Assembly: GCA_018857735.1 (NCBI GenBank)
Contig: JABMCL010002458.1
Location: 86,001 to 150,000, forward strand
Direction of reading: 5' to 3'
DNA from: Alviniconcha marisindica
Taxonomy: Eukaryota; Mollusca; Gastropoda; Provannidae
Length of the DNA stretch: 64,000 nt
Positions 4,001 through 63,248 of this stretch are shown here, in pieces; position 1 is the stretch's first letter; the number at the start of each line of letters is the position of its first letter. The translations under genes were made by a program, and so were the position numbers. A model generated the notes under the pieces. It was not told the origin of the DNA. It did no database searches and saw only the letters and a list, made by a program, of their open reading frames with translations.

Positions 4001-4018
4001 CTTTTCAGCACACACTGG

Positions 4019-4194: not shown

Positions 4195-4261
4195 GGTTCT
4201 GGGTGTGAGCCAAACGACTGCGACCTTACTTCTAGACTGCTCTGAAGTGAGAGTAGCGAGT

Positions 4262-4487: not shown

Positions 4488-4514
4488 TTCTTTCACACAT
4501 GCTCAGAGAACCAA

Positions 4515-5747: not shown

Positions 5748-5868
5748 CTGGTCCAGAAGCTGTATGGTGGTGTGAAGGATCTCCCTCCACTTGGACACCT
5801 CATCCTGGTGAAGGGAGCGCTGCTGTCGAAGCAAGTGGGCCCAGTCCTCCTGACTTCGGGGGTGTTGC
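5748..5868 (-). CDS. GRAMD1: GRAMD1 exon 15, lumenal C-terminal segment
   Basis: Codons 737-777. Reads [17 protein letters not shown] and [15 protein letters not shown], equal to the vertebrate PQSQTEWAQLL...KWREI...LLDQ segment. Acceptor TGTGACAG, donor CAG|GTACCA. About 25-45 further residues and the stop codon are expected in a later exon that I could not identify. Confidence 0.93.
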
Positions 5869-6053
5869 CTGTCACACACACGCAGCAACATACTGACGAC
5901 TGTCACATACACACAGCAACATGCTGACAACTGTCACACACAGAGCAACATACTGACGACTGTCAAATACACACAGCAACATACTGACGACTGTCACATA
6001 CACACAGCAACATGCTGACGACTGTCACACACCCATCAACATACTGACGACTG

Positions 6054-6087
<34 letters not shown>

Positions 6088-9000
6088 CAACATACTGACA
6101 ACTGTTGCACACAGAGCAACATACTGACGACTGTCACACACACATATACACAGCAACATACTGACAACTGTCACACACAGCAACATACTGACGACTGTCA
6201 CACACACAAAGCAACATACAGATGACTGACACACACACAGCAACATACCGATGACTATCACACTCACATCAACAGCAACATACTGACGACTGTCACACAC
6301 ACATCACAGCAACATACTGACGACTGTCACACACAGACAACATACTGATGACTGTCTCACACACACAAGCAACATACGAGACTGTCACCACACACCACAC
6401 ACAACATACCAACACACACACACACACACAACATACTGACGACTGTCACACACACACCAACATACTGACGACTGTCACACCCAGATCAACATACCAATGA
6501 CTGTCACATATATACACAAATCAACATATGGATGACTGTCTCACACACACAAATCAACATACAGAGGACTGTCTCACACACAAATCAATATATTGATGAC
6601 TGTCGTATACACAAATTGACATATTGATGACTGTCACACACACAGGTCAACATACAGATGACTGTCTCACACACACAAATCAACATACAGATGACTGTCT
6701 CACACACACAAATCAACATACAGATGACTGTCTCACACACACAATCAACATACAGATGACTGTCTCACACACACAATCAACATACAGATGACTGTCTCAC
6801 ACACACAAATCAACATACAGATGACTGTACTCACACACACAACATCAACATACAGATGACTGTCTCACACACACAATCAACATACAGATGACTGTCTCAC
6901 ACACACAAATCAACATACAGATGACTGTCTCACACACACAAATCAACATACAGATGACTGTCTCACACACACAAATCAACATACAGATGACTGTCTCCAC
7001 ACACAAATCAACATACAGATGACTGTCTCACACACACAATCAACATACAGATGACTGTCTCACACACAAATCAACATACAGATGACTGTCACACACACAA
7101 ATCAACATACAGATGACTCACACATGCAAACCACATACAAATCAACATGCTGATGACTGTTCCACATGCAAATCAATATACTGATGACTGTCCACACACA
7201 TAAATCAATATACTGATGACTGTCCACACACATAAATCAATATACTGATGACTGTCACACGCATAAATCAACAGACTGATGAATTGGGGGTGTTGACTAT
7301 CACAGGAAAGGAAATAATTTCTTCGCGCCCAGTCATCCATGACAGAAACATCAGGGGACTGTCACAGATGAATGAACATACAGATGACCTTCAGGTGTTG
7401 CCAGCACACAGACAGTGCAACAATGCAGTGAGTGAACACTACTCACAGGAGGTTGTCAATTTCCTGGTCAGTGTGGGCTGAGTACAAGCCTGCTGTTGAC
7501 GCCTCCATCGCCCACAGCTTGTAGAACAGCACAGCGTTGAACATCACCAGCAGTATCAAACTGAAACCAACCAACCAACCAAGTGTTGAACATCACCAGC
7601 AGTATCAAACTGCAACCAACCAACCAACCAAGTGTTGGACATCACCAGCAGTATCCAACTGCAACCAACCAACCAACCGAGTGTTGAACATCACTGCAGC
7701 AGTATCCAACTGAAATGACTAACCAACCAATCACAGCACTGACCACACTCAAACTCGTAATCAAACTGAAATCAACCAATCACTGAATCAACTAACCACA
7801 GCACTGACCACACTCAAACTCGTAATCAAACTGAAATCAACCAACCACAACACTGACCATACTCAAACTCGTAATCAAACTGAAATCAACCAACCACAAC
7901 ACTGACCATACTCAAACTTGTAATCAAACTGAAATCAACCAATCACTGAATCAACCAATCACAACACTGACCACACTCAAACTCGTAATCAAACTGAAAT
8001 CAACCAACCACAACACTGACCATACTCAAACTCGTAATCAAACTGAAATCAACCAACCACAACACTGACCATACTCAAACTTGTAATCAAACTGAAATCA
8101 ACCAATCACTGAATCAACCAATCACAACACTGACCACACTCAAACTCGTAATCAAACTGAAATCAACCAATCACTGAATCAACCAACCACAACACTGCAC
8201 AGCAGAAGGTAAACCACAGCACACTGAACTGAAATTTCAACATCATCAGCAGAATTAAAATGGAATCAGTCAATTAGTGAATGACATCACCAGACCCCCC
8301 CCCCCCAAACGTCTGCTTGAGGACCCCAGACTGATCCCTGGCAGGTCTGTCTAGTTGGTTCATTTCAATCACTGTGGACAGGGACTCTCTTCTTGGTTCA
8401 TTTGAACCACAAGTCTATAAGGACTGCTATCTTGGTTCATTTGAACCACAAGTCTATAAGGACTGCTATCTTGGTTCATTGGAACCACAAGTCTATAAGG
8501 ACTGCTATCTTGGTTCATTGGAAACGGTCTATAAGGACTGCTATCTTGGTTCATTGGAACCACAAGTCTATAAGGACTGCTATCTTGGTTCATTTGAACC
8601 ACAAGTCTATAAGGACTGCTATCTTGGTTCATCGGAACCACAAGTCTATAAGGACTGCTATCTTGGTTCATCGGAACCACAAGTCTATAAGGACTGCTAT
8701 CTTGGTTCATCGGAACCACAAGTCTATAAGGACTGCTATCTTGGTTCATCGGAACCACAAGTCTATAAGGACTGCTATCTTGGTTCATCTGAACCACAAG
8801 TCTATAAGGACTGCTATCTTGGTTCATTCGAACCACAAGTCTATAAGGACTGCTATCTTGGTTCATTTGAACCACAAGTCTATAAGGACTGCTATCTTGG
8901 TTCATTGGAACCACAAGTCTATAAGGACTGCTATCTTGGTTCATTGGAAATGGTCTGTAAGGACTGCTATCTTGGTTCATTTGAAACGGTCTATAAGGAC

Positions 9001-10389
9001 TCTTTGTCTCAGTCTCTTCCTAGTTCATTTGAACCAAACTGTACTGGGACTACCGTCTTGGTTCATTTGGAACAGAAGCCTATAAGGACTACCTTCTGGG
9101 TTCACCTGAGATGGTAATCTACAGGTTTCATTGGAACCAGCAGTCTACAAAGACTACCTTCTGGGTTCACCTGAGATGGTAATCTACAGGTTTCATTGGA
9201 ACCAGCAGTCTACAAAGACTACCTTCTGGGTTCACCTGAGCTGCTAATCTACAGGTTTCATTGGAACCAGCAGTCTACAAAGACTACCTTCAGTGCTTCT
9301 ATGAAGCAGAGGCCCACAAGGACTGCCCCTCCACAGTTCACTTTCTTGGCTCATCACGAAGCAAAAGTCTACAAGGACTACATTTCCGTTCATTTAAACC
9401 AGAAGTCCGTTCCGAAATCACAACCAGAAGCTGATCAGTTCTAAGCAGGCTTCATGTCTGCCCGACAATGAAAATGAGGCTCTGTCACAGGTCAGGCTGA
9501 CATTTGCTTGTGATGCAAAAGGACAAAAGACAGGTTTCAGACCATTTTGCAGCACCTGCCAATCACACTGTAATGAGGCCACAAAGGCTCCTGCCGATCA
9601 CACTGTAATGAGGTCACAAAGGCACCTGCCAATCACACTTTAATGAGGTCACAAAGGCACCTGCCAATCACACTGTAATGAGGCCACAAAGGCTCCCACA
9701 AACACACCACTGTAATGAGGACACAAAGGCTCCTGCAAGCACACCACTGTAATGAGGTCACAAAGGCTCCTGCAAGCACACCACTGTAATGAGGTCACAA
9801 AGGCTCCTGCAAACACACCACTGTAATGAGGTCACGAAGGCTCCTGCAAGCACACCACTGTAATGAGGTCACAAAGGCTCCTGCAAGCACACCACTGTAA
9901 TGAGGTCACAAAGGCTCCTGCAAACACACCACTGTAATGAGGTCGCGAAGGCTCCTGCAAACACACCACTGTAATGAGGTCACAAAGGCTCCTGCAAACA
10001 CACCACTGTAATGAGGTCACAAAGGCTCCTGCAAACACACCACTAAGAAGCATGACTGCAGCTCTGACAAGGAAAGGCCACAGTTACTTACATGATGATG
10101 ATGACTCGAACCAGCGTGTCTGCATTGAGTCTGATCATTCCTTCCTCCTTCAGGCCCGCACCTGCACACAGGTCCGGGTCAGTCATGTGTCACCTCCAGC
10201 CATAAATTAACACATGATGTTGATGAGGAGGTTGATAATAATAACAGATAAGTTTTGTATAGCGCTATTCTCTGGTGTACACAAACTCACTGCAATTTAC
10301 AACATTCTCCAACATTTTCTAAGTGGGGATTTCTTTTTGATGGTAACATGTTCATGAAAGTAATACTTATATGACAATTAACAATGTAT

Positions 10390-10426
<37 letters not shown>

Positions 10427-13400
10427 TGGTGATGATGATAACCAGCATGCACACAGATAACCTGGACCAGCCCTGCAAAGTGATGTTGCCTGTGTCACTC
10501 ATGATGTTGATGATGTTGACAACCAGCATGCACACAGATAACTTAAATCAGCTCTGCAAAGTGACACTGCCTGTGTCACGAATGATGGAGATAATGGTAA
10601 TGATGAACATGACAGTGATGATGAATCTGATTACTCATGGTAATAGTGATGGTGATGATGCTGTAAGATGATGATGGTTACAGTAATGGTAGTAAGGATG
10701 GTGATGATTATGATCAGATTTAAACTAGATCATCTCCCCTCTTTTCAGTGAAGCACGTGTGTATCACCAGTCACAAAAATAACAGTGGTAACAAGTGGAC
10801 AGACAAACCAACCAACAGAATGACTAACAGACAAACCAACCAACAGAGTGACTAACAGACAAACCAACCAACAGACAAACCAACCAACAGAGTGACCAAC
10901 AGACACACTAACCGACAGATAAACCAACAGGGAGACAAATGGACAGACAAACCAACCAACAGACACACCAACCGACAGATAAACCAACAAGCAGACAAAG
11001 TGAGAGCTACACCAGCGAAGCACTAACACAACCAACCAACAGCCTAACCTCTGGTGGGGGAAGGGGGCGTGGACGAGGGCTGCCTGTCGCTCAGGGCGCG
11101 AGCCTGAACCATGGTGTCCGACACGCTGGCGTGCAGCTTCCGTCGGCGGCGCAGTTTCTTCTTGGACAGCTGGTGCTGGTGGCTGGGGTGATGGCTCTCC
11201 TGTCTCTCCGCCTCCCGTCGCAGGTGAGCCGCTGCCACACACCACACCTTGTGTCATTTTTTGTTCATCAGGAACCCTCGGCCACAGGCTCTTACAGGTG
11301 AGCTGTATCATTTTTTGTTCATCAGGAACCCTTGGCCACAGGCTCATAGAGGTGTCCGGAGACAAAGTTCAACCACTTTCAATGCCCCCCTTTTTTTTTC
11401 AAGGACCTAATGAACTTTAAGAAAGAACAAGCAGATTTTTTTAAATCTATAGATGCAACACTCAGTCACTGTCACACGCCTGAACAGGCCACCTTAAGCA
11501 ACCAATAAAAAGGCTGTTGTCATAAGCAACCAATAAAAAGGTTGTTGTCATAAGCAACCAGTAAAAAAGTTGTTCGTCATAAGCAACCAGTAAAAAGGTT
11601 GTCATAAGCAACCAATAAAAAGGTTGCTGCCTTAAGCAACCAGTAAAAAGGTTGCTGCCTTAAGCAATCCATAAAAAGGTTAAAAGACTCATTATTCTCT
11701 CCTCTTTAAATACAGAGGATATATATCACCATAGGAAATGAAATGAAAATGAAAACAATATCATCTCATTAATGGGAAAACAGCCTGCAGATGATATGCA
11801 GGAAAAAGGCCCATGTGAAAGCTGGGACCAAAGACGGCTGCTGGGTGAAATACTCACAGAGGTTCCTGAAGTAATCGGTCAGCCCGTTGACAGCACTTTT
11901 CTCTATCATCCCTGCAGCACAAAGCAACCGCAACCAGTCACACACCACCTGACTCCAACACCTATACCTCATCCCCACCGCAGACTGGCACCACAGGAAC
12001 TGCAGTCTAAGACTTGTCTGTCAACATCCCCACCACAGACTGGCACAACAGGAACTGCAGCCTAAGACTTGTCTGTCAACATCCCCACCACAGACTAGTA
12101 CAACAGGAACTGTAGTCTAAGACTGTCAACATCCCCACTACAGACTGGTACAACAGGAACAGCAGTCTAAGACTTGTCTGTCAACATCCCCACCACAGAC
12201 TGGTACAACAGGAACTGCAGTCTAAGACTTGTCTGTCAACATCCCCACCACAGACTGGTACAACAGGAACAGCAGTCTAAGACTTGTCTGTCAACATCCC
12301 CACTACAGACTGGTACAACAGGAACAGCAGTCTAAGACTTGTCTGTCAACATCCCCACTACAGACTAGTACAACAGGAACAGCAGTCTAAGACTGTCAAC
12401 ATCCCCACCACAGACTTGTAAAACATAAGCTCTTCAGTGTCAGACATCCCTAAACATTCCCATCACAGACATGTGGAACATAATCTACACACACATAGTG
12501 TCAGACTCACCCTTAAACATTCCCATCACAGACTTGTGGAACATAATCTACACACACATGGTATCACTCACCCTTAAACATTCCCATCACAGACATGTGG
12601 AACATAATCTACACACACATGGTGTCACTCACCCTTAAACATTCCCATCACAGACTTGTGGAACATAATCTACACACACATGGTGTCACTCACCCTTAAA
12701 CATTCCCATCACAGACTTGTGGAACATAATCTACACACACGTGATGTCAGACTCACCCTTAAACATTCCCATCACAGACTTGTGGAACATAATCTACACA
12801 CACCTGGTGTCACTCACCCTTAAACATTCCCATCACAGTTTTGTGGAACATAATCTACACACACATAGTGTCAGACTCACCCTTAAACATTCCCATCACA
12901 GACTTGTGGAACATAATCTACACACACATAGTGTCAGACTCACCCTTAAACATTCCCATCACAGACTTGTGGAACATAATCTACACACACATGGTGTCAC
13001 TCACCCTTAAACATTCCCATCACAGACTTGTGGAACATAATCTACACACACGTGATGTCAGACTCACCCTTAAACATTCCCATCACAGACTTGTGGAACA
13101 TAATCTACACACACATGGTGTCACTCACCCTTAAACATTCCCATCACAGACTTGTGGAACATAATCTACACACACGTGGTGTCAGACTCACCCTTAAACA
13201 TTCCCATCACAGTTTTGTGGAACATAATCTACACACACATGGTGTCACTCACCCTTAAACATTCCCATCACAGACATGTGGAACATAATCTACACACACA
13301 TAGTGTCAGACTCACCCTTAAACATTCCCATCACAGACTTGCGGAACTTGAGCTCGCTGGTTACTTGAACCCGACACTTGTTGAGGGAGACGCGGGTGAG

Positions 13401-19064: not shown

Positions 19065-19126
<62 letters not shown>

Positions 19127-19195
19127 TTATACAGGGTGTTACAAACCAGTTCTCTCTCTCTCTCTCACACATTATGCAGGGTGTTACAAACCAGT

Positions 19196-19236
<41 letters not shown>

Positions 19237-25105: not shown

Positions 25106-25153
<48 letters not shown>

Positions 25154-26607: not shown

Positions 26608-26668
<61 letters not shown>

Positions 26669-30571: not shown

Positions 30572-30627
<56 letters not shown>

Positions 30628-32127: not shown

Positions 32128-32183
<56 letters not shown>

Positions 32184-33743: not shown

Positions 33744-34037
33744 TGTCGTTCACGTGAATGTAATAAATTAAGAGAAATACACTTCATAATGCGAAAAATC
33801 GAAGTTCCAATGTTTACCGCATTATGTTGACTATCACGTACGACAGAAGCGGAAGTGTAAATGCTACATCAGTTTCGCATTCTGCTGCAGTAAACGTAAA
33901 TAATTCTGACTTTGTTTCTTGAAAAACACTACACGTAAAGCAATATATTATGGCTAGCATAAAACATTCAAGTAAAAACGAGGTAAAATAAAGGCAGAAT
34001 CCCAACATTCTTTTGAAATACGAAATTATAGGCTATA
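33744..34037. promoter_or_regulatory. Shared divergent promoter region of GRAMD1 and IFT46
   Basis: 294 bp separate the two divergent start codons, so both 5' UTRs and core promoters must lie here unless an untranslated exon exists elsewhere. It is unique sequence with no minisatellite. An E-box CACGTG lies at 33751-33756 and an ETS-like GCGGAAGTG at 33849-33857. I saw no clear TATA box and no good RFX X-box, which ciliary genes often carry. Bidirectional function is inferred from geometry. Confidence 0.7.
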
Positions 34038-52100: not shown

Positions 52101-53424
52101 GACATTGGTAGTGTATGAACTGGTACCAGAGTTTTATTAAAAAGGCATGGATAGTGTGTGATGAACTGCTATAAGAGTTTCAGTGGGAGGGTAATGGTGA
52201 TGCAATGAGCTAGCACCAGAACGTTTGATGGAAGAGTGTTTTTAGTCAGATGAGGGGGGTGCACTGCCAGCCGTTTGGTGGAGCAATGGTGTGTGTGACC
52301 GACTGATTGTTTTGTGTGGTGGGAGAGCTGTGGTTGTGTGATAAACTGGCACCACATGTTTGATATAAGAACACTGACAATGGATAAGATGGTGCCAGAT
52401 GTTTGATGTATGATGGTGATGATTTGATAAGACGGCACCAGATGTTTGATGTAAGAGCAGCGACAATGAGTCAAATTGCACCAGAGGTTTCATGATACTG
52501 GAACCAGACGTTTGGGTGGAAGAGTGGTGGTTACATAACAAACTAGTACCAGATGTCAGATGGATGTGTGACGGTATTAATGTGATGAACCAGATGTTGG
52601 GTGGAAGAGTGGTGGTTACATGACAAACTAGTACCAGATGTCAGGTGGATGTGTGACGGTATTAATGTGATGAACCAGATGTTTGGTGGAAGAGTGGTGG
52701 TTACATGACAAACTAGTACCAGATGTCAGATGGATGTGTGACGGTATTAATGTAATGAACCAGACGTTTGGTGGAAGAGTGGTGGTTACATGACAAACTA
52801 GTACCAGATGTCAGATGGATGTGTGATGGTATTAATGTAATGAACCAGGTGCTTGCTGCAAGAGTGAGGGTGGTATGCTGAACGGGTAACGGGAACGCCT
52901 TTGCCGGGTGAAGGGAATAAGAAGGGAGAAGTCGGGGGCTGTGTGGCCATTCCAGAGTGTGACATGGAGTTTGAGACTTCCAGGTTTTTGTGACTAATGG
53001 TTCCTGGTTGTTGCTGTTGTTGTTGTTACCTTTCATCCTGATGTCGTCCTGTGCTGTTGGCTGGACATTAAAATCCACTTACTCACTTCTCAAGTTAAAT
53101 ACATGCATTTATTGTTGACAGTTTCTCTTAATTAGTTAACATAATGAGTTGTAGTGACTCCAGTGATTGCTTTAGATTTTTCACTCTATAGTTTACATAG
53201 GCAACAAGGTGTTCATGAATTACTCTTCATACATCACTAGAAGTAGTTGAAGTTGGTGCACTTTTCTGTGTGTCACGTACTCACAAAGACCATACATATT
53301 GTCAATGTCAGTCAGGTGTAGCAGCATTTTCAGGTTCTTTGTCGTCACTTTAATTTTCCTCTTTTTTCTTCAATACCTTCTCACACATACACACATGCAT
53401 GCACATACACACTCACACATGCAT

Positions 53425-53493
<69 letters not shown>

Positions 53494-56400
53494 AACACAG
53501 AACAACACAACACAGCACACACATGTGCACACACACACACACACACGATTATCTTGCTGGTCATTTGGTGTACGTGTGTGTGCCTGAGTGTTGTTGCTGT
53601 TAGTGTTAAGTGTGGGACGTTACCCTGGGTGTGGAAGCCTGCACTGTATATATATATAAGTTTATCGTTATGATCATCATTGTTGTTTACCCACTCTGTT
53701 GACAGCAGCCCCAGCAACCCATTCCAGCCAGTCGTGGGGCAGCACCGCAGAGTCAGCAGTTCAACTCAGAGGATGACGATGATGATGAAGACGATGAAGA
53801 TGATTCAGATGATGATGATGATGACGATGAGCATCCTCAGGTGGAAGGGTGAGCAGTGACTGTGAGAGGGGAGACTGTGGATGCAGAAATGGGCATGTCG
53901 TCGTTGTCACGTTAGTTGTGAATGTGAGAGTGGAGACTGTCGATACAGAAATGGGCATGTCGTCGTTGTCACGTTAGCTGTGAATGTGAGAGGGGAGACT
54001 GTGGATGCAGAAATGGGCATGTCGTCGTTGTCACGTTAGTTGTGAATGTGAGAGTGGAGACTGTCAATACAGAAATGAGCATGTCATCGTTGTCACGTTA
54101 GTTGTGAATGTGAGAGTGGAGACTGTCAGTACAGAAATGGGCATGTCATCGTTGTCACGTTAGCTGTGAATGTGAGAGGGAAAACAGCTGCCACAGAAGG
54201 AAGATTCGACTGCCGGCACTCTCTGTGACATGGGAGATTCCCCCTCTGATTCCCAAGCCTGGAATTGTAGAGATGGCCATGTTTCAGTCGTGCATGCTTT
54301 TCCTGTGGCCAGGTTTTCTTGCCTGTCTGATACAGTAACAGCTATTGTCGGCCTCGTCGCACAGTCTGCTGTTACAGTGTTAGGCTTCTGCTTCTCCTGT
54401 CCATCTTTGTGTTGTCAGTTTGCTGCCTGTCCAGTAGCCCTCTTGTCCCTCACTGTCTGTCGCCTGCCCAGCACTTCTCAGCAAATACTGTGAACTGCCC
54501 GGCGTGGGACTGGCCGGCGTGGGACTGCCCGGCGTGGGACGTGGGAAAGATCTGGTGATGAACAGGTCAGTCAGTGACCTCTGGCCCGGGTAGCACACAG
54601 ACAGGAGTGGGAGTCAAACTGTTGCTGCAGCTTCTGAAAAGGTTGCCTGTTTTGTGATCGGTAGAAATGCAGTCATTTTACTTCCCTCAGTATCGTATCT
54701 GTTTGATTGGTATTGTTGTTGACGTGTGTGTGTGTGTGTGTGTATGCACTGTACCAATGCAGTTGATTTTCCTACAGTGCCTGTGTGACTGTTTCAGAGC
54801 ATACGACCCAGCAGAGTTTGAGAATCTGTCTGTAACAGCTGAGATCAAGGAGCTGTTCCAGTACATTACCAGGTGGGTGCTGGGTGGAAAGTGTGTGTGT
54901 GCCTCTGTCTGTCTGTCCATCTGTCTGTCTGTCTCTCCCCCTCTCTCTCAGGGTTTCAGTGTGTGTGTATTATGTTGTGTGTGCATTTGTGTGTGTATGT
55001 TTGCATGAGTGTGTGTGAATGCATGCGTGTATGTGTATTGTAGACAGCTGTTTGGTTCGGGCCCCCGCACTGTGTTAGTCTGTCCACAGTACTTTGTCGT
55101 CTGAATCAGTCCATGACACTGTGTTAGTCTGTCCACAGTACTTTGTCGTTTGAATCAGTCCATGACACTGTACTGTTTGAATATGTCGTTTGAATCAGCC
55201 ATGACACTGTACTGTTTGAATATGTCCACAGTACTTTGTCGTCTGAATCAGACCATGACACTGTGTTAGTCTGTCCACAGTACTTTGTCGTCTGAATCAG
55301 TCCATGACACTGTGTTAGTCTGTCCACTGTACTTTGTCGTCTGAATCAGTCCATGACACTGTGTTAGTCTGTGCACAGTACTTTGTCGTCTGAATCAATC
55401 CATGACACTGTGTTAGTCTGTCCACAGTACTTTGTCTCTGAATCAGTCCATGACACTGTACTGTTTGAATATGTCCACTATACCGCATTGTCGTTTCCAT
55501 CTGTCCCACTGCTGTGTGGTGGTTGTAATTAGCCCCAGTGCTGTGTGGGTGTCTCCATCAGTCACAGTGTGTGGTTGTCTCCATCAGTCACAGTGTGTGG
55601 TTGTCTCCATCAGTCACAGTGTGTGGTTGTCTCCATCAGTCACAGTGTGTGGTTGTCTAGCCATCAGTCACAGTGCTGTGTGGGTGTCTCCATCAGTCAC
55701 AGTGTGTGGTTGTCTCCATCAGTCATAGTGTGTGGTTGTCTCCATCAGTCACAGTGTGTGGTTGTCTAGCCATCAGTCACAGTGCTGTGTGGTTGTCTCC
55801 ATCAGTCACAGTGCTGTGTGGTTGTCTGCATCAGTCACAGTGCTGTGTGGTTGTCTCCATCAGTCACAGTGTGTGGTTGTCTAGCCATCAGTCACAGTGC
55901 TGTGTGGTTGTCTAGCCATCAGTCACAGTGCTGTGTGGTTGTCTAGCCATCAGTCACAGTGCTGTGTGGTTGTCTAGCCATCAGTCACAGTGCTGTGCGG
56001 TTGTCTAGCCATCAGTCACAGTGCTGTGCGGTTGCAGGTACACACCTCAGTCCATTGAGCTGGACCACAAGCTGAAACCGTTCATCCCCGACTTCATCCC
56101 ATCAGTCGGCGACATCGACGCCTTCATCAAGGTAACTGCACTGGCTGCCCTTGTAGTAGAGGGGCTGATACATAGTTTAAGATTCAAGAGTACTTTGTTA
56201 TTTCATCAGAGAAATTAAAACATGGCTGAACATTAACGACATCAGAGTGCTCAATAACACATATATTTTATTGAAAATACAAAGATTAAATATTAAACTA
56301 GTGATTTACACACACACACACTGCTCAGACGTTTGAATGGATTTATCTGTTCAGAAATGCTATTGACAGCAGAACAATATTATTATTGTAATAACAATGA

Positions 56401-59400
56401 TGGTAATTACAGGAATGATAGTGATGATAATAAAGGTGATTTTCATGGAGCTTATGGAGCAGTGGAAGTTCAGTGTGGAACAAACAGACGTTGGTCATGT
56501 ATGAAGGGGTAGGCCTGCCCTCTGAGGTCCTCAATCCTTGGTGCTACAGCAATGAGGGTACTGGCCGCCAGTCACCCAGCTTCCTACAGCAATGAGGGTA
56601 CTGGCCGCCAGTCACCCAGCTTCCTACAGCAATGAGGGTACTGGCCGCCAGTCACCCAGCTTCCTACAGCAATGAGGGTACTGGCCGCCAATCACCCCGC
56701 TTCCTACAGCAATGAGGGTACTGGCCGCCAGTCACCCCGCTTCCTACAGCAATGAGGGTACTGGCCGCCAGTCACCCAGCTTCCTACAGCAAGGGAGGGT
56801 ACTGGCCGCCAGTCACCCAGCTTCCTACAGCAAGGGAGGGTACTGGCCGCCAGTCACCCAGCTTCCTACAGCAAGGGAGGGTACTGGCCGCCAGTCACCC
56901 AGCTTCCTACAGCAAGGGAGGGTACTGGCCGCCAGTCACCCAGCTTCCTACAGCAAGGGAGGGTACTGGCTGCCAGTCACCCCGCTTCCTACAGCGATGG
57001 AGGGTACTGGCCGCCAGTCACCCAAGCACTTCAGCCAATCACTATGTCTTGAATGATATTTCGCACAAAAAGCCCAGAGTGGCTGCTGTATTTTTCTCAC
57101 AAAATACAGTGTAACCATCAAATGAAAGCTGGTGGAAACCTTCACAGGTCAAAACATAGCGTAGCCCATGAAGATGGGGTGGTGGAGTCCAAACAAAACC
57201 TTCACAGGTCAAAACATAGCGTAGCCCACAAAGATGGGGTGGTGGAGTCCAAACAAAACCTTCACAGGTCAAAACATAGCGTAGCCCACAAAGATGGGGT
57301 GGTATTTCCACACAAAATATTCACAAACAGCTAGATTTATTAGTTGAATGGAGTATGTGCACATGTATATGGGTCATTCTCCAAGGCTGTGTACCAATAT
57401 CCAAAATGGCTGACAGTTTTTTCCACTTCAGTTCAGTAGTTTGTGAGAAACACCAGTGGGCTGTCAAAGTGGACTAAGCCATGTAACATGTTTAAACACA
57501 AAGAAAAGGGAATGAAAAATTATATTAACTGAAAAAAAGCAGCATATAGATGCCTAAACTTTGGATGCTAAGAACTTAATAACTCAACACTGTCAGTGAG
57601 TGTTGTTTTTAATGTCTCGCACATAGATATACAACAGAGCACAAATGAAAGGTAGACATTACAATGAACGGCTGATTCAAAACAGTTGTTTAATATAGTC
57701 CACCCGTAGTTGTAGGTACTGGTACACAGCTTTGGAGAATGACCCGTATATAATAATAATAATAAAAATGAACTTGTAGAGCGCTTTCAAAAACTCTAAG
57801 CGCTTTACAATTGGACTTAAAGAAAAACATACAATGCGCAAATATACAAGCGTACAAAACATATAAAAATTAACAAACATTTTCATACAAAGCATGGCAA
57901 AAACACAAGCACACAAGATATATATATTTGTGTATATTCCTACAGAGCCAGGTTTATTCAGTTAAATTGAGTGAGCATGTGTATGTATGTTCAGATATCA
58001 CATTCCAAACAGTCAGACTAAGTGACTGATAGGGGGGTTGTGGGGTTGGGGGGGCAGCACATTGTTCACAGTGGACTGGTGCATGTGTGTCTTTAGATAT
58101 CACATTCCAAACAGTCTGACGTGAATGACAGATAGGGGGTGGCGGGGGGTTGTGGGGGTGGGGGGCAACACATTGTTGACAGTGGACTGGTGCGTGCGTG
58201 TGTTCAGATTCCACGTCCAGACAACAAGCCCGACACGCTGGGTCTGACCGTGCTGGACGAGCCGTGTGCCAAGCAGTCCGACCCCACCGTCCTTGACCTT
58301 CAGCTCCGCGCTATCTCAAAGCAAACCACGGCCAAGACTCTGGTAAGTGTCCTGTTGCTGTTCTGTGGGTCTCTGTTTCACTTGAAGCATGCGTGTGTGT
58401 AGATGTTGTTCTGTGGGTCTCTGTTTCACTTGAACCATGCATGTGTGTAGATGTTGTTGTTCTGTGGGTCTCTGTTTCACTTGAACCATGCATGTGTGTA
58501 GATGTTGTTGTTCTGTGGGTCTCTGTTTCACTTGAAGCATGCGTGTGTATAGATGTTGCTGTTCTGTGGGTCTCTGTTTCACTTGAAGCATGCGTGTGTG
58601 TAGATGTTCTTGTTCTGTGGGTCTCTGCGTCGCTTGAAGCAGGTGTGTGTGTGTATGTTGTTGATCTGTGGGTCTCTGTTTCACTTGAAGCAGGTGTGTG
58701 TGTAGATGTTGTTCTGTGGGTCTCTTCGTCGCTTGAAGCAGGTGTGTGTGTGTATGTTGTTGATCTGTGGGTCTGTGTCACTTAATTGTGAATCATGCAT
58801 GTGTGTGTGTGTAGTTGTTCTGTGGGTCTGTGTCGCTTGAAGCAGGTGTGTGTATATCTTGTTGTGCTGTGGGTCTGTGTCTATTGAGGTATGCGTGTAT
58901 GTGTATGTTGTTCTGTGAATCTGTGTCACTTGAAGCTTGCGTGTGTGTGTATGTTGTGAGAAACTGTGTCTTTTGAAGCATGTGTGTGTGTGTATGTATG
59001 CTTGGACCTTAGCTAACAAAGCCATAAAGTTTCATGGAGGTAGTATTTAAATGAGTTATGATTTTGTAACTGGTCAACAGTTTGAAATTTTGACACTTGA
59101 AAACTTGGAACTGGTTGAATGGGTTGTCAGGTTGTTTATTTTGTGTGACTGCTTCACCTGTGTTTTGAAACCAGGACCAAGACAACTGTCTCTCTATGCA
59201 GATTGTCCAGGGAGACAGTAAAGTTACAATACAATAATACAATACAACTTTATTGCCAAGTGTCAGTACACTGATTGCAGGAGGAATGGTATTTTCCCAT
59301 TTTGCTCTTGTTGGATTGCTCAGCACAACTCAGCAGAACTGTACCTCAGAACTACACAGTCCCTGTGCTGTGGGTCTGTAACACGTAACCAGTCAAAAAC

Positions 59401-62213
59401 CCAAGTAAATCACCGCCTTCTCATCGGCAGTAGGCAGAGTGCTTCAAGGGGCTGCCTACCGCAGAGGGGCTGCCGCAGCAAGATGTTTTAAGCCAGCTTT
59501 TCAGCAAGGCCTGCACAACTACAAACTGTACAGACTGTTCCTCTCAGACGTTTATTTCTCCCTTTTCCCACTGCGACAATGACCAGTAGTGGTCAGGGTA
59601 GCCAACAGTCTATGAGTATGACGGTATCCATGGTGACAGAAGCAGAAAAAGGACCCCCCTGCCCTCTGAGTGAGTGCTGTGGAATATGGAGGGTGGAAGT
59701 GGGGTTGTGGTTTGTGGCACATACTGAAGAATCTAAGAAAAATCCTTTAACATACGTCACTTGACCTTGCTCTTGTATTTTGAGGGCTGGCGCTGTACTT
59801 ATTTAGCTATTTGTTAACAGGAGAGTTGGTCTCCCTACTATAGATTTAAGTAAGATGGTTTATCTTGTTGCTTCAAGTTGTTAAATGCGAGGAAAGTTTT
59901 GGTTTGCCCAGTTGAGATGGAAGTCATTAAAGTAACAGTTTTAAACAAATACATGGCGCTAAACTTGGTTGATTATGGCAATATCACACATATATGATAT
60001 ACCTGTCTGTTATATGTGCTCAGAAAGACCCCAGCAATTTTGTCGTGTTTTATTTCCCTTTTCTGTGTTGAGAATTGGGAGCATTTAAAATCAAATTGGA
60101 TTGATTTATGTGTGTAATTACCTCCCTTGGCTGTGTGCTGTTAAACTTCTTTATCTCTCTGTGTCTCTTTCTCTCCTCTCCTCCCCCCCCCCCCCCCTCT
60201 GTTTTCTTCTGTTTTTCTTGTCTTTTTAAATTTAAATTCCAGTTCAGTGTTGTTTATTTAATATAAAACAAAATAAGAAAAAAACGCTTTCTGTCCATTC
60301 AACCTTTGGTGTTGGATTCATAGTGAAAAGGGGCAAACTGTTAGTTTTGCTGATTCGCTTGCAGAAATGTCAGGCAGATTGTTAGTTTTGCTGATTCGCA
60401 TCAAGAAATGTCAGGCAGATTGTTAGTTTTGCTGACTCACATCAAGAAATGTCAGGCTGTTGATCACTGTTAGAACGATGGGCCACCCAGCTGATTGCCC
60501 GTCCTGAAAAAAATAGTTGCAATTTTCTCAGACACTTTGAATATGCATGACAAAGTCTGAATAGTGGTCAGACTCATTGAGCTGTACCCATTCATACCAC
60601 TTAAGACTTTCAGTGACCTGACCATGTTTCAAGGTCAGAACAGCATCAGTCACACACCCAGTCAAATGTCTGCAGTGACTCATCAGTTGGAAGATTGAAT
60701 TGCAAAGGTTCAAGCTTGCAGGTTTCAGTCAATTTGTGTCCGGTCTGTTCTGATTTTGCATGGTTTGTTGAGTACATCTGAGAATGTACAAAAATACAAA
60801 TACAGGAGAAATTTATTATTCATAGTAAATTCATAAAGTGAAAGTTTGTCTTTTGGTCACTGGAGTTCCACAATAAAGAGGCCAAGTAGACAGTTCAACA
60901 CAACAGAGGTAAGAGTATACAAATAAAACGGAGTAAAACATAGTAAAACATCTTTAAATAATCTTGTCAGCTGACCACAGCTGTGTGTGGGTGTTTCAGG
61001 TGGTGAAGAGTTTGGAGAGTGCACCATGATCAAATGATCCCCATGTCAACTGACACCACTGTGTGTGGGTGTGGGTGTTGAACAGTTTGGAGAGTGCACC
61101 ATGATCAAATGATCCCCATGTCAACTGACACCACTGTGTGTGGGTGTGGGTGTTGAACAGTTTGGAGAGTGCACCATGATCAAATGATCCCCATGTCAAC
61201 TGACACCACTGTGTGTGGGTGTGGGTGTTGAACAGTTTGGAGAGTGCACCATGATCAAATGATCCCCATGTCAACTGACACCACTGTGTGTGGGTGTGGG
61301 TGTTAAACAGTTTGGAGAGTGCACCATGATCAAATGATCCCCATGTAAACTGACACCACTGTGTGTGGGTGTGGGTGTTGAACAGTTTGGAGAGTGCACC
61401 ATGATCAAATGATCCCCATGTCAACTGACACCACTGTGTGTGTGTGGGTGTTGAAGAGTTTGGGGAGTGAGCCATGATAAAATGATCATGTAAACAGACA
61501 CCAATGTGTGTGGGTGATTCAGGTGGTGAACAGTTTGGAGAGTGCACCATGATCAAATGATCCCCATGTCAACTGACACCACTGTGTGTGGGTGTTTCAG
61601 GTGTTGAACAGTTTGGGGAGTGAACCATGATCAAATGATCCCCATGTCGACTGACCACCACTGTGTGGGGGTGTTTCAGGTGGTGAACAGTTTGGGGAGT
61701 GAACCATGATCAAATGATCCCCATGTCAACTGACCACCACTGTGTGCGGGTGTTTCAGGTGGTGAAGAGTTTGGAGAGTGCGGAGAAGAACCCCAAGGCC
61801 ATTGAGAACTGGATTGAGAGCATCAGAGACCTGCACCGCTCCAAGCCCCCGCCCAACGTGCACTACTCCAGGTGAATTGTCGGGGGGGGGGGGGGGGGGG
61901 GGGGTCTGTGTGTGCATGTTGTAAAGCCCTCTGCACTCCTGTTTAATGTGGAAGATTGAGCGCTGTTTAAGTCCTCTTTACTGTTGTTATTATAAACTTA
62001 AGACTAGGTTGCATGGTTGCCAACCCCTTTTTAAGTTTCTGTCCAAATTTCCAAAGCGGATGATCATGCCATTCAGTCCCCCCCACACCTTTAGAGCTGT
62101 GTTAAAGCCTTGCCTTTGCAAACAGTACCGCAACAACTTTGTTCATTTCTGTCTTCTCTCTTCTGCATTTGTGTGTGTGTGTGTGTGCGCACACGTGCGT
62201 GCATGTGCAAGTC

Positions 62214-62250
<37 letters not shown>

Positions 62251-63248
62251 ATTCATGTTGTATGTGTTGAATTTCGACAGTATGTATTTGTAAAGAATGT
62301 GTAAGCACTTAGGGCCTGTGCGGGTTAGGCGCTCTAAGTATTCATTATTATTATTATTATTATTATTATTTAGATGCATTCCTTCTGTGGGCCCATGTGT
62401 AGGTGGTGTGTGAGAGCGACACAGTATGCTGTCTGAGGTTTTATGCTTACATTTTGTTGGTTGCCTGAAGCTTGGTGTGGTCCTCTTTGTCAGTGAGATA
62501 CTGCATTGTACAAATGGTTGCAATAACTACTGTGATGATTAATCCCTTAGGAATAGGATCCAGGACATTTTTAGCTTCTTCTTCTTTTTTCTGTCTTGAA
62601 TGGCCAGAGAGGGTGGTCTTTACTTCATTAGGACCAGGGAGTGTTATTTTTCTGTCTAAATGGCCAGAGAGGGTGGTCTTTACTTCAGTAGGATCAGGGA
62701 GTGTTCTTTTTGTGACTGAATGGTCAGAGAGGATGGTCTTTACTTCATTACGATCAAGGAGTGTTATTTTTGTGTCTGAATGGTCAGAGAGGATGGTCTT
62801 TACTTCATTATGATCAAGGAGTGTTATTTTTGTGTCTGAATGGCCAGAGAGGGTGGTCTTTACTTCATTAGGACCAGGGAGTGTTATTTTTGTGTCTGAA
62901 TGGCTAGAGTGGCAGTGTTTGTCTTTGTGTTGTGCAGAAACATGCCAGACATTGACATGTTCATGCAGAGTGGCTGTGTTTGTCTTTGTGTTGTGCAGAA
63001 ACATGCCAGACATTGACATGTTCATGCAGAGTGGCAGTGTTTGTCTTTGTGTTGTGCAGAAACATGCCAGACATTGACATGTTCATGCAGAGTGGCTGTG
63101 TTTGTCTTTGTGTTGTGCAGAAACATGCCAGACATTGACATGTTCATGCAGAGTGGCTGTGTTTGTCTTTGTGTTGTGCAGAAACATGCCAGACATTGAC
63201 ACTCTCATGCAGGAGTGGCCCCCAGAGTTTGAGGAACTGCTCAAAGAG
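34038..63248 (+). CDS. IFT46: Intraflagellar transport protein 46, exons 1-11, 3' end beyond window
   Basis: Spliced plus-strand gene; the 11 exons join in phase (2052 nt, 684 codons). Family knowledge: IFT46 is a core IFT-B subunit of the train that carries cargo into cilia, and it links to outer dynein arm transport. Conserved blocks in order: NQPYDESLEVPDAEEIAS (about 30-47), an acidic tract (about 497-515), GAYDPAEFENLSV and AEIKELFQYITR (523-548), LDHKLKPFIPDFIPSVGDID (about 556-575), PRPDNKPDTLGL and LDEPCAKQSDPTVLDL (about 581-615), EKNPKAIENWIESI (about 633-646), and NMPDIDTLMQEWPPEFEELL (663-682). Human IFT46 is 304 residues. The excess here comes mainly from one 375-residue low-complexity exon (exon 5). 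The C-terminal part is outside the window. Confidence 0.97.
34480..34868 (-). mobile_element. LINE reverse transcriptase C-terminal remnant (outer element, part 2)
   Basis: The minus strand encodes NNLENEQRLMVLKLPSLECR, RRARGDMIETFKI and TRGHPFKLHK-type sequence with stops and shifts. This is the C-terminal part of a non-LTR polymerase. It appears to continue the fragment at 35600-35905, split by another insertion. Confidence 0.8.
34869..35590 (-). mobile_element. 5'-truncated LINE, 3' end, inserted in an older LINE
   Basis: The minus strand encodes CTLVTSYILSRLDYCNCLL, then in another frame SAINGSGPAYLSELLHVYTP, RSSSDTRMLEIQQYKRKTHG and FKAKLKTFLF, and ends with an (ATT)n tail at 34871-34882. 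It is broken by at least one frameshift. A (CA)n lies at about 35029-35055. Confidence 0.85.
35591..35905 (-). mobile_element. LINE reverse transcriptase remnant (outer element, part 1)
   Basis: The minus strand reads LGSFVDKELKSEQLINETVR, ENRIAAW and SLVRPILEYGNAVRAPC, the thumb region of a non-LTR polymerase. Stops and a frameshift make it non-functional. Confidence 0.82.
36575..36680 (+). CDS. IFT46: IFT46 exon 2
   Basis: Codons 27-61. Reads ALLHQNQPYDESLEVPDAEE, then IASTYSPTPRVPNPS. The NQPYDESL motif is typical of animal IFT46 N-termini. Acceptor TTGACAG, donor CTG|GTGAGA. Confidence 0.92.
36810..37313 (+). mobile_element. Short element with 11-bp inverted ends containing a SAP-protein relic
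   Basis: GGGCGATTCAG at 36810-36820 is exactly inverted at 37304-37313 plus one flanking base. Inside, from ATG 36906, the frame reads NFTLPTLKAFLEARSHNVSG and NKQ, then a TAA stop, then LVAHAIECPKTHFF. This looks like a SAP-type DNA-binding motif split by a nonsense mutation. No clear target-site duplication, so the transposon assignment is inferred. Confidence 0.5.
37314..38730. other. Single-copy IFT46 intron 2 sequence
   Basis: AT-rich, with a small AATAATAATAGATAATTCTT fragment near 37630. No exon, RNA or array recognised. Confidence 0.6.
38752..38830 (+). mobile_element. Degenerate tRNA-like SINE head
   Basis: GGTAGCTCTGTGGGC (A-box-like) and GGAGTTTAAATCTCAGTGG (B-box-like) are spaced about as in a tRNA. 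The arms do not pair well enough for a functional tRNA. Confidence 0.5.
39309..39344 (+). CDS. IFT46: IFT46 exon 3 (36-bp micro-exon)
   Basis: Twelve codons, VKAREALQLNRQ, with phase 1 at both ends. Acceptor CTGACAG, donor AAG|GTGACC. Supported by phase continuity with exons 2 and 4. Skipping it would keep the frame. Confidence 0.75.
39627..40262. repeat. 32-36 bp G/C-skewed minisatellite, about 18 copies
   Basis: Unit GGGTTAGTGGGGAGGGTTAA plus GGTCTACCCCCAAACC. Each unit has several GGG/GGGG runs and a CCCCC run. Lies in IFT46 intron 3. Confidence 0.93.
40310..40500. repeat. 47-60 bp repeat, 4 copies
   Basis: Unit contains TGCATGTTCAACTGGCCCTT and CCTGGACTGGGAGTC. Confidence 0.85.
40925..41225. 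repeat. 34-bp minisatellite, 7 copies
   Basis: Unit GTTACAGATTGTACATTTTC plus TGGAACTGGTGGGA. 41226-41410 then holds diverged CATGTCCCACATGTATACAC repeats. Confidence 0.92.
41630..41780. repeat. 71-bp direct duplication
   Basis: TTCCTGGTGCAGGGGCTCTG and the following CTTAGTCCTTCA…CACACGCCACTGTTCCC occur twice. 41780-42750 is single-copy and AT-rich with no exon seen. Confidence 0.85.
42755..43530. repeat. Two related 53-55 bp minisatellites, about 14 copies
   Basis: The first type has GAGGTTTTAGAATGCTGTTT, the second TTTGTAGTACATTGTACTGA; both share TTTTTGCTGAAGTGTGCAGC / TACAGC and AACAGAGAG. One type evidently replaced half of the other's unit. Copies at 42920-43080 are frayed. Confidence 0.92.
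43950..44577. repeat. 37-bp minisatellite, about 17 copies
   Basis: Unit CTGTCTGGACCCCAAAATAG plus AGCCCTACCATATCTCA. Confidence 0.93.
44600..45560. repeat. 48-51 bp minisatellite, about 18 copies
   Basis: Unit CCCCCTGTAGACACCGACAA plus CCACATGCCCATTTAGACTC. Gives 60-100 codon minus ORFs that are by-products. Confidence 0.94.
45640..46870. other. Mostly single-copy IFT46 intron 3 sequence
   Basis: Opens with a 40-bp duplication (GATCATGTCCCCTGTTGTAC plus AGCAGGGCGGGCTG, 45645-45720). From about 46560 diverged fragments of the exon 4 acceptor array appear (CTGTCCTAGATTTGGGT). The 46360-46520 stretch looks noisy, with homopolymer irregularities. No gene supported. Confidence 0.6.
46925..47680. 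repeat. 65-bp minisatellite, about 11 nearly identical copies
   Basis: Unit contains TGAGCGTTCTGTGGTGCTGT, TTCACAGACTGAAACGGCCT and ATAATAACAACAATAAGT. Copies 2-9 show no difference I can see, which implies recent expansion or ongoing homogenisation. Confidence 0.95.
47885..48334 (+). repeat. 70-bp minisatellite leading into IFT46 exon 4 acceptor, about 6 copies
   Basis: Unit has CTGTTTCTGTCCTAGATTTG, GGTCACAGTCTTTGGAATGG and GAAGAAGACTG. The true junction is TAGATTTAG|GTCACAGTCGAGG. Proximal units at 48165-48170 and 48251-48256 keep ATTTAG; distal ones have ATTTGG. Confidence 0.9.
48335..48414 (+). CDS. IFT46: IFT46 exon 4
   Basis: Codons 74-100, reading GHSRGNSPPQSAMSDQSDDP and YEDKPSQ. 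The acceptor ATTTAG at 48331-48334 is needed for phase; the CAG 7 bp later breaks the frame. Donor CAG|GTAAGG. The acceptor sits at the end of a 70-bp minisatellite that carries near copies of it. Confidence 0.82.
48465..49275. repeat. 49-bp minisatellite downstream of IFT46 exon 4, about 15 copies
   Basis: Unit TTTTCATCTTCTTTGTAATG plus CTGATCACACTTCACCCATG. Begins about 50 bp after the exon 4 donor. The last copies are diverged. Confidence 0.94.
49276..50113. other. IFT46 intron 4, single-copy then C-rich
   Basis: No repeat array. 49885-50113 is a long C/T-rich tract that ends in the exon 5 acceptor, an unusually strong polypyrimidine region. Confidence 0.7.
50114..51238 (+). CDS. IFT46: IFT46 exon 5: long low-complexity exon, possible cassette
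   Basis: 1125 nt, 375 codons, open throughout, phase 0 at both ends, acceptor CTGCAG and donor AAG|GTACTC. Four compositional zones: a basic start (PQKKKGGSKGGSLRRQTLL); a P/Q/M-rich zone with QMAQMAQMAYMQ-type repeats (to about residue 200 of the exon); a long acidic run (about 200-250); then alternating E/K sequence ending in KKKKSKKPKRSTKREIPPIR and a glycine/proline-rich tail. Human IFT46 has nothing comparable. Skipping it leaves the frame intact and joins exon 4 directly to the canonical acidic tract of exon 6, so it may be alternatively spliced. No known domain recognised. Confidence 0.72.
51310..52165. repeat. 52-bp minisatellite downstream of IFT46 exon 5, about 16 copies
   Basis: Unit GACATTGGTAGTGTGTGATG plus AACTGGTACCAGAGTTTTAG. 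Variants alternate (GTGCCAG, GTACCAG). Confidence 0.94.
52200..52865. repeat. Diverged repeats including an 85-bp unit, 4 copies
   Basis: Unit contains ACTAGTACCAGATGTCAGAT, GTGACGGTATTAATGTGATG and GTGGAAGAGTGGTGGTTACA (52540-52860). Earlier copies share the ACCAGATGTTTGATG motif with the preceding array. Confidence 0.88.
53405..53560. repeat. (CA)n microsatellite
   Basis: About 32 uninterrupted CA units then ACAAACAAACACAGAACAAC and more CA. 52866-53400 before it is single-copy, nothing recognised. Confidence 0.92.
53706..53848 (+). CDS. IFT46: IFT46 exon 6, acidic tract
   Basis: Codons 476-522. Reads QPQQPIPASRGAAPQSQQF, then a D/E run ending EHPQVEG. The acidic run just before GAYDPA is characteristic of IFT46. 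The acceptor is a tandem CAGCAG (NAGNAG), so the exon could start at 53706 or 53709, adding or removing one glutamine. Donor AAGG|GTGAGC. Confidence 0.93.
53849..54185 (+). repeat. 63-bp minisatellite starting at the IFT46 exon 6 donor, 5 copies
   Basis: Unit TGTGAGAGTGGAGACTGTCG, ATACAGAAATGGGCATGTCG and TCGTTGTCACGTTAGT. The first copy begins at the donor (GTGAGCAGTGACTGTGAGAG). Later copies lack a clear donor. Confidence 0.9.
54798..54872 (+). CDS. IFT46: IFT46 exon 7
   Basis: Codons 523-547. Reads AYDPAEFENLSVTAEIKELF and QYIT, nearly identical to the vertebrate AYDPADYEHLPVSAEIKELF block. Acceptor GTTTCAG, donor AG|GTGGGT. Confidence 0.97.
55070..55490. repeat. 49-bp minisatellite, about 9 copies
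   Basis: Unit CATGACACTGTGTTAGTCTG plus TCCACAGTACTTTGTCGTCT. Confidence 0.92.
55510..56037 (+). repeat. 24-33 bp minisatellite running into IFT46 exon 8 acceptor, about 18 copies
   Basis: Unit CATCAGTCACAGTGCTGTGT plus GGTTGTCTAGC. The last copy changes GGTTGTCTAG to GGTTGCAG, which is the acceptor. Units thus carry TTGTCTAG, itself acceptor-like. Confidence 0.9.
56038..56131 (+). CDS. IFT46: IFT46 exon 8
   Basis: Codons 548-579. Reads RYTPQSIELDHKLKPFIPDF, then IPSVGDIDAFIK, strongly conserved. Acceptor GGTTGCAG, donor AAG|GTAACT. A 31-bp array runs right up to the acceptor. Confidence 0.97.
56132..56540. other. Single-copy IFT46 intron 8 sequence
   Basis: AT-rich with TTATTATTGTAATAACAATG; no element identified. 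Confidence 0.6.
56545..57030. repeat. 40-bp minisatellite, about 12 copies
   Basis: Unit CAGCAATGAGGGTACTGGCC plus GCCAGTCACCCAGCTTCCTA. Two blocks: GCAATGAGG (first six copies) and GCAAGGGAGG (later copies). Confidence 0.95.
57125..57320. repeat. 60-bp repeat, 3 copies
   Basis: Unit AACCTTCACAGGTCAAAACA, TAGCGTAGCCCACAAAGATG and GGTGGTGGAGTCC. Confidence 0.93.
57371..57745. mobile_element. MITE-like DNA element with about 27-bp inverted ends and 6-bp target duplication
   Basis: The left end GGGTCATTCTCCAAGGCTGT…GTACCA is inverted at the right end with two or so mismatches (…TTTGGAGAATGACCC). GTATAT occurs directly on both sides (57365-57370 and 57746-57751). 375 bp, AT-rich, no ORF: a non-autonomous cut-and-paste element. 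Superfamily not assigned. Confidence 0.85.
57752..57930. mobile_element. AATAAT-tailed dispersed element fragment
   Basis: AATAATAATAATAAAAATGA, then TGTAGAGCGCTTTCAAAAAC and TCTAAGCGCTTTACAATTGG. The GAGCGCTTT/AAGCGCTTT pair can form a hairpin and is typical of dispersed repeats in marine invertebrates. Family unknown. Confidence 0.6.
57970..58207 (+). repeat. Two-copy 110-bp duplication leading to IFT46 exon 9 acceptor
   Basis: TTCAGATATCACATTCCAAA…CAGTGGACTGGTGC occurs twice before the true TTCAG|ATTCCACGTCCAGACAA. The repeated TCAGATATCACATTCCAAAC is probably a diverged copy of the acceptor and exon start. Confidence 0.7.
58208..58342 (+). CDS. IFT46: IFT46 exon 9
   Basis: Codons 580-624. 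Reads IPRPDNKPDTLGLTVLDEPC, AKQSDPTVLDLQLR and SKQTTAKTL, equal to the vertebrate VPRPDGKPD...LDEPSTKQSDPTVL block. Acceptor TGTTCAG, donor CTG|GTAAGT. Confidence 0.97.
58343..58990. repeat. 52-60 bp minisatellite after IFT46 exon 9 donor, about 12 copies
   Basis: Unit GTTCTGTGGGTCTCTGTTTC plus ACTTGAAGCATGCGTGTGTG. Later copies have TCGCTTGAAGCAGG. Confidence 0.92.
58991..60970. other. IFT46 intron 9, mostly single-copy, with one element tail
   Basis: 59219-59300 (minus) has an AATAAAGTTGTATTGTATTA tail typical of a non-LTR element 3' end. 60350-60450 has three copies of CAGGCAGATTGTTAGTTTTG. No other gene or element supported. Confidence 0.55.
60985..61758 (+). repeat. 75-80 bp minisatellite copying IFT46 exon 10 acceptor and exon start, about 10 copies
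   Basis: Units have CAGTTTGGAGAGTGCACCAT and GATCAAATGATCCCCATGTC. The unit at about 60993 retains TGTTTCAG|GTGGTGAAGAGTTTGGAGAGTGC, identical to the true junction through 23 exon nt. Those near 61520, 61597 and 61674 keep TTCAGGTG. Central units lost the TTCAG. Confidence 0.94.
61759..61871 (+). CDS. IFT46: IFT46 exon 10
   Basis: Codons 625-661. Reads VVKSLESAEKNPKAIENWIE, SIRDLHRSKPPPNVHYS. Acceptor TGTTTCAG, donor AG|GTGAAT. The first 23 nt and the acceptor recur in the array immediately upstream (60985-61758). Confidence 0.97.
61940..62380 (+). mobile_element. Probable 3' end of a dispersed element with (ATT)n tail
   Basis: Ends GTTAGGCGCTCTAAGTATTC then ATTATTATT, the GCGCT…TATTCATTATT tail type of molluscan non-LTR elements. 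An upstream frame reads FRAVLKPCLCKQ, which resembles the FKS.LKTHLF C-terminus of LINE polymerases. Interrupted by (GT)n at 62170-62250. Confidence 0.5.
62585..62912. repeat. 60-bp minisatellite, about 5 copies
   Basis: Unit GAATGGCCAGAGAGGGTGGT, CTTTACTTCATTAGGACCAG and GGAGTGTTATTTTTGTGTCT. Confidence 0.93.
62914..63181 (+). repeat. 61-bp minisatellite copying IFT46 exon 11 acceptor and exon start, 4 decoys
   Basis: Decoy acceptors TTGTGCAG precede exon-like sequence at 62938, 62999, 63060 and 63121, exactly 61 bp apart; the true exon begins at 63182. Each decoy encodes NMPDIDMFMQSG, the real copy NMPDIDTLMQEW. Confidence 0.97.
63182..63248 (+). CDS. IFT46: IFT46 exon 11
   Basis: Codons 662-684. 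Reads RNMPDIDTLMQEWPPEFEEL and LKE. This is the fifth copy of a 61-bp unit; only this copy continues into the conserved LMQEWPPEFEELL, so it is the functional one. Acceptor TTGTGCAG, donor GAG|GTTGGT. Confidence 0.97.

Follow-up and report, generated by a model that had tools for sequence, protein, structure and literature searches.

The closest described counterparts of the repeat arrays considered here are the lancelet 'mirages', tandem repeats that span an exon-intron boundary, whether 5' or 3', and include exonic sequence, and which the available parts of two papers describe in Adh3 and the globin genes BflGb6 and BflGb9 (PMC3087553) and also in TnC and PGBD5 (PMC3902484). Their units measure 150-160 bp in the globin genes and 10-72 bp in Adh3 (PMC3087553); many copies, though not all, keep the AG or GT, the copies homogenise with the exclusion of the edge copy, regular splicing is undisturbed, and there is length or somatic instability (PMC3087553, PMC3902484). 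The same papers consider that mirages may be general in cephalochordates (PMC3087553, PMC3902484). Here, we describe arrays of this type in a 64-kb window (the whole stretch of DNA analysed) from the gastropod Alviniconcha marisindica, in which minisatellites beside exons of two genes, GRAMD1/Aster-B and IFT46, repeat the adjacent splice junction. In our judgement these arrays are, with a probability of about 0.82, lancelet-type mirages, that is, the product of neutral minisatellite growth from founding duplications that happened to cross an exon edge.

Two human cases are also related. In IFI6 (6-16), a minisatellite repeats the donor and downstream units themselves serve as donors, so that three mRNA species arise, as summarized in a passage of a later paper (PMC4526556, citing Turri 1995), while internal tandem repeats at exon-intron boundaries in human segmental duplications alter splicing and, in the accessible text of that report, are proposed to give rise to new introns (PMC2812944). 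For molluscs, the available text of a paper on Conus introns mentions microsatellite-like repeats in introns and no copies of boundaries (PMC3862624). An earlier note on this stretch knew of no description of such arrays as a genome-wide pattern; at the level of single genes the published lancelet mirages are such a description, and in the open-access literature (subscription papers lying mostly outside the search) we found no mollusc case and no genome-wide survey.

The evidence that splice junctions are copied into introns comes from 46 junctions, 30 in GRAMD1 and 16 in IFT46, including both junctions of an unverified IFT46 exon 5, which were negative. For each junction, we took a 20-mer of 8 exonic and 12 intronic nucleotides (nt), looked through at most 1500 nt of the neighbouring intron for the sequence most like it, and compared the result with 200 dinucleotide shuffles. 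Eight of the 46 have their 20-mer copied in the adjacent intron at P<=0.01, a threshold that chance alone would let about 0.5 junctions pass: the donor of exon 6, both sides of exon 10 and the acceptors of exons 14 and 16 in GRAMD1, together with the acceptors of exons 4, 10 and 11 in IFT46. All of these had been named in the earlier note as arrays that copy true splice sites, save the GRAMD1 exon 16 acceptor, a junction (4268) that lay outside its interval and was absent from it. Other junctions that it listed fared less well: GRAMD1 exon 15 fails with the 20-mer (P=0.075) but is recovered by its first 12, 16 and 20 exonic nt (P=0.005 each), GRAMD1 exon 12 (20-mer P=0.109) is weakly indicated by an exon-only 16-mer (P=0.010), the sole signal at IFT46 exon 9 is a similarly weak donor-side exon-only 20-mer (P=0.010), and IFT46 exon 8 has no significant copy in the junction or exon-only tests. 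A bias between donors and acceptors was also considered and rejected, being significant neither among the eight junctions (2 vs 6, P=0.29) nor among the arrays that overlap exons (1 vs 5, P=0.22).

Coding sequence is carried along in some of these arrays. An array called by Tandem Repeats Finder (TRF) enters the exon by at least 8 nt at 5 of the 46 junctions, the exonic part of the array being 38 nt long at IFT46 exon 11, 32 at the GRAMD1 exon 10 donor, 25 at GRAMD1 exon 14, 23 at IFT46 exon 10 and 15 at IFT46 exon 4. The proposal that coding sequence is copied therefore stands for five arrays, with 15-38 nt of exon each, and does not extend to the GRAMD1 exon 6 donor, exon 10 acceptor and exon 16 acceptor (three of the eight junctions), where the exonic part alone is non-significant, so that the arrays repeat the splice signal with little exon. 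At exon 16, just 3 exonic nt lie within the TRF array.

One of two explanations that the earlier note offered for this pattern, which it called too frequent for chance, is that exon borders are preferred starting points of duplication; R-loops, pausing or GT- and AG-rich slippage motifs at splice sites could be the cause. The eight repeated junctions do lie far beyond what shuffled sequence gives, and the arrays at GRAMD1 exons 6 and 15 begin flush at the splice site, as a border preference would have it. The distribution of copies along introns and exons speaks against it. With the same 20-mer measure, allowing up to 3 edits, a copy is present at 8/46 junctions, whereas positions within the intron have one at 13/44 (12 nt from the junction), 15/44 (25 nt), 18/44 (50 nt), 24/44 (100 nt) and 27/44 (200 nt), and random intronic positions, searched on one side, at 532/996; inside exons, the counts fall to 3/44 (20 nt) and 0/33 (40 nt). 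Compared directly, with the two IFT46 exon 5 junctions dropped from the junction side only, junctions are copied less often than positions 100 nt into the intron (8/44 vs 24/44, Fisher P=0.0008). Repeat cover thus drops monotonically from intron to exon, and the border is a point on a smooth slope, not a peak.

Nor does the number of spanned junctions call for a special property of borders. In a founder null, each array was collapsed to one unit and placed at random, overhang into exons being allowed. A first simulation counted a junction as spanned if the array took in no fewer than 8 exonic and 12 intronic nt around it, and gave a mean of 5.0 (standard deviation, SD, 1.9), with probabilities of 0.10 for eight or more and 0.04 for nine or more. 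A second simulation, in which non-overlapping founders were expanded to the observed array lengths, gave 7.1 (SD 2.1), with probabilities of 0.42 for eight or more and 0.23 for five or fewer. The observed count is five by TRF overlap of at least 8 nt and eight by the 20-mer test, and 11 array edges lie within 12 nt of a junction or beyond it, where the second simulation expects 10.1 (SD 2.4). The exonic fractions of the six overlapping arrays (0.11-0.62) likewise do not differ from a uniform distribution (Kolmogorov-Smirnov P=0.28, with low power at n=6). Copies of junctions therefore exceed what is expected of shuffled sequence but not what is expected from the repeat content of the introns, and by the tests used here there is no excess at borders. 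A preference of duplication for exon borders is accordingly quite unlikely. TRF masks 52% of the window, where 111 arrays remain after clustering, 96 of them with units of at least 10 bp, and the median unit is 42 bp; it is probably because the introns are saturated with minisatellites, and not through attraction to borders, that junction arrays are frequent in both genes.

Several points weigh against neutral growth from chance founders. The count of eight junctions lies on the upper side of the first simulation, and a ninth would bring its probability to 0.04. Clustering set the exon 15 array 126 nt away from its exon, although the raw TRF rows are flush with it, which would, if anything, raise the number of observed edges to 12. 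Intron cover comes out too low in the second simulation (0.47 vs 0.61 at 200 nt into the intron), which makes this null approximate, and in one array, at IFT46 exon 4, the splice-site columns show somewhat stronger conservation than the remaining blocks of the unit, as described below. The sample, moreover, consists of two genes.

Under neutral growth, the founding tandem duplication would have one end in the exon and the other in the adjacent intron. The splice site would survive, the first copy at a donor and the last copy at an acceptor staying joined to the exon and intact, so that an array may be tolerated by virtue of its geometry, as its structure suggests. The remaining copies would become intronic decoys, which could then expand, contract and become homogenised as any non-coding repeats may, the arrays presumably having arisen by slippage or unequal exchange. 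At GRAMD1 exons 10, 11, 14 and 16 and IFT46 exons 10 and 11, the alignment with the proteins of Babylonia and Littorina continues through the exon-proximal copy with no gap, and this copy thus encodes conserved protein; together with the geometry, these orthologues support the earlier suggestion that arrays are tolerated since one working copy remains. The exon-proximal site is probably the one spliced, with the decoys little used.

That such arrays multiply decoy splice sites, as had been anticipated, is evident from 121 decoys with a GT or AG in nine arrays, which we scored with small position weight matrices built from the donors and acceptors of both genes (23 of each). Scores within 1 bit of the true site or better are found for 13/15 decoys at the GRAMD1 exon 10 donor, 4/4 at IFT46 exon 11, 7/7 at GRAMD1 exon 16, 2/3 at GRAMD1 exon 14, 3/4 at IFT46 exon 10 and 1/5 at IFT46 exon 4, with 3/27 at the GRAMD1 exon 10 acceptor, 0/14 at the GRAMD1 exon 6 donor and 1/42 at GRAMD1 exon 15. 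The GT is kept in 15/15 copies at the GRAMD1 exon 10 donor (a longer query finds 14 copies and a shorter query 15, two being degraded), 13 of them at full score, and the AG in 3/3 at GRAMD1 exon 14, 4/4 at IFT46 exon 11, 4/10 at IFT46 exon 10, 5/5 at IFT46 exon 4, 7/7 at GRAMD1 exon 16 and 42/43 at GRAMD1 exon 15. As 13 decoy donors at GRAMD1 exon 10 and four decoy acceptors at IFT46 exon 11 equal the true site in score, local motif strength cannot explain the choice of site there, and our guess is that the right copy is picked through recognition of the exon as a whole.

It is conceivable that the decoys are functional, with copy number tuning productive splicing via nonsense-mediated decay or with decoys acting as spare splice sites, the 'pool of redundant sites' once suggested for this locus. 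The decoys of near-native strength, 13 at GRAMD1 exon 10, four at IFT46 exon 11 and seven at GRAMD1 exon 16, speak for such a role, and in the modelled reading frame 116 of the 121 would bring in a stop codon; of the five stop-free ones, three would shift the frame at the last exon and two would insert sequence in frame at exon 6. Random frames also give stop codons, however, and most decoys carrying one sits poorly with a pool of usable spares; the AG persists in only 4/10 copies at IFT46 exon 10, and none of the decoys at GRAMD1 exon 6 comes within 1 bit of the true site. Selection preserving decoy sites was rejected because, across six aligned arrays, the splice-site columns are no better conserved than the rest of the unit: the share of blocks at least as conserved as the site columns is 0.70, 0.43, 0.79, 0.95, 0.08 (IFT46 exon 4) and 0.71. 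The decoys hence look neither maintained nor purged, and we regard a function for them as very unlikely. At IFT46 exon 11, the exon-derived columns agree at 1.00 among copies and at 0.84 with the true copy, which is under coding constraint, and in the other arrays the comparison is mixed.

Least credible of all is misassembly of the arrays with chimeric exonic copies, for although a conserved GRAMD1 linker is missing from a repeat-rich intron and could have dropped out, the units differ at every site, their copies differ by substitutions and small indels, and the GRAMD1 frame is open through 16 exons. The copy numbers given here are those of one assembled haplotype.

The two genes carrying these arrays were identified and placed correctly in the earlier note; GRAMD1 lies on the minus and IFT46 on the plus strand, with Pfam domains to match, and the note's exon numbers agree with our reconstruction (Table 1). 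GRAMD1 runs from 33743 to 4182 in a single open frame to its stop codon, with GT..AG introns and GRAM and VASt domains in the product, and its best relatives among the matches listed come from Babylonia areolata (75%, with 100% of the query covered) and Littorina saxatilis (74%), which by itself points to a probable caenogastropod source. IFT46 also reconstructs in frame with GT..AG junctions, its product has the IFT46_B_C domain, and the Babylonia and Littorina proteins align at about 90% to exons 4 and 6-11. A Pfam scan of a single frame of positions 1-10000, on the wrong strand for GRAMD1, returned no domain. Positions 5748 and 63248 are the ends of GRAMD1 exon 15 and IFT46 exon 11, respectively.

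Table 1. Genes and exon-adjacent arrays in the 64-kb window
Feature	Coordinates	Strand	Details
GRAMD1/Aster-B gene	4182..33743	-	16-exon model; a conserved linker exon stretch is missing
GRAMD1 exon 16 acceptor array	4266..4486	-	28-bp units; seven TTTTCAG decoys; exon 16 = 4268-4182
GRAMD1 exon 15 acceptor array	5869..7282	-	flush with acceptor; exon 15 = 5868-5748; 43 copies
GRAMD1 exon 14 acceptor array	7536..7730	-	49-bp units; acceptor and about 25 nt of transmembrane-segment exon; exon 14 = 7560-7447
GRAMD1 exon 12 acceptor array	11250..11354	-	two copies near acceptor 11231; weak evidence for copied exon start
GRAMD1 exon 10 donor array	12437..13347	-	TRF; 61-bp units, each with about 30 nt of exon end and the donor; exon 10 = 13508-13316, donor after 13316
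GRAMD1 exon 10 acceptor array	13515..14318	-	GT-rich; repeats GAGCAG/GTGTGTT (slash, junction); TRF ends 6 nt short of acceptor 13508
GRAMD1 exon 6 donor array	23910..24194	-	41-bp units; donor signal repeated, no clear exonic content; exon 6 = 24371-24195; starts at donor, TRF row itself begins 24182
IFT46 gene	48329..63248	+	exons 4 and 6-11 backed by orthologues; first exons and 3' end not in model
IFT46 exon 4 acceptor arrays	47877..48343	+	70-86-bp units; five copies; exon 4 = 48329-48414
IFT46 exon 10 acceptor array	60965..61781	+	75-bp units; 10 copies; exon 10 = 61759-61871
IFT46 exon 11 acceptor array	62906..63219	+	61-bp units; exon 11 starts 63182; 38 nt of exon inside

Some further features of these genes deserve mention. 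An in-frame stretch of 1125 nt at 50114-51238, glutamine- and acid-rich with splice-like ends, is kept as a candidate IFT46 exon 5 only, since it cannot fit the 360-residue Babylonia IFT46, and is possibly an alternative exon or a chance open stretch. The linker absent from GRAMD1 intron 6 (18307-24194; 5.9 kb, 75% arrays), of about 50 residues with a PRELWQWIHYNYGEELGL core, is present in Babylonia and Littorina between the exons flanking this intron; the best hit of a tblastn search of both window strands with the two linkers had an E of 0.036 and fell in an unrelated part of the sequence, and either lineage loss or assembly dropout would account for it. In intron 7, an array of about 67-bp units (16756-17906) has long G runs on the plus strand, which are C runs in the transcript. 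Minisatellites with units of at least 10 bp cover 34% of the DNA between the genes (33744-48328), 54% of the GRAMD1 span and 43% of the IFT46 span, and with cover lower between the genes than within them, the arrays are not a purely intergenic feature in this window. Relatives of GRAMD1 and IFT46 lie on listed contigs of equal size in Babylonia, Littorina, Pomacea, Lottia, Liolophura, Mya, Candidula, Lingula and Owenia, which suggests an old linkage of the two genes, equal size being a mere proxy for the same contig.

These observations extend mirages beyond lancelets and provide a baseline, in which each array is reduced to one unit and founders are placed at random, by which an excess at borders can be tested in any genome. 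Decoys whose scores equal that of a true site lying tens to hundreds of nt away amount to a natural experiment in splice-site choice, and junction arrays bear on models of intron gain from tandem duplicates. A bolder idea, and an unlikely one, is that mirages are pervasive in minisatellite-saturated mollusc genomes, their fast change in copy number making splice-site redundancy a heritable, continuously variable dial; alleles would then differ in the number of equal-strength decoys, and at many genes the fraction of transcripts that are lost through stop codons, or that acquire new introns or exon ends, would drift among alleles.

Set beside the known systems, the arrays resemble lancelet mirages in spanning boundaries with exonic nt included, in affecting both sides of exons (acceptors at GRAMD1 exon 14 and IFT46 exons 4, 10 and 11, a donor at GRAMD1 exon 10) and in that many, though not all, copies keep the AG or GT. 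They differ in occurring in a mollusc, several per gene in two neighbouring genes, with units of about 28-78 bp, and in being known from assembled sequence alone. With IFI6, as it is presented in the passage available, they share a minisatellite at a coding boundary that repeats a donor, whereas the decoy donors of the window are predictions from the DNA. The repeats of human segmental duplications are likewise minisatellite expansions at boundaries but, in the accessible text, belong to paralogues from recent duplications and often remain part of exons, whereas the decoys described here lie in the introns of conserved genes. The kind of array is thus already known from lancelets, and what is new here is a dense set of mirages in a mollusc, together with a baseline against which to judge them.
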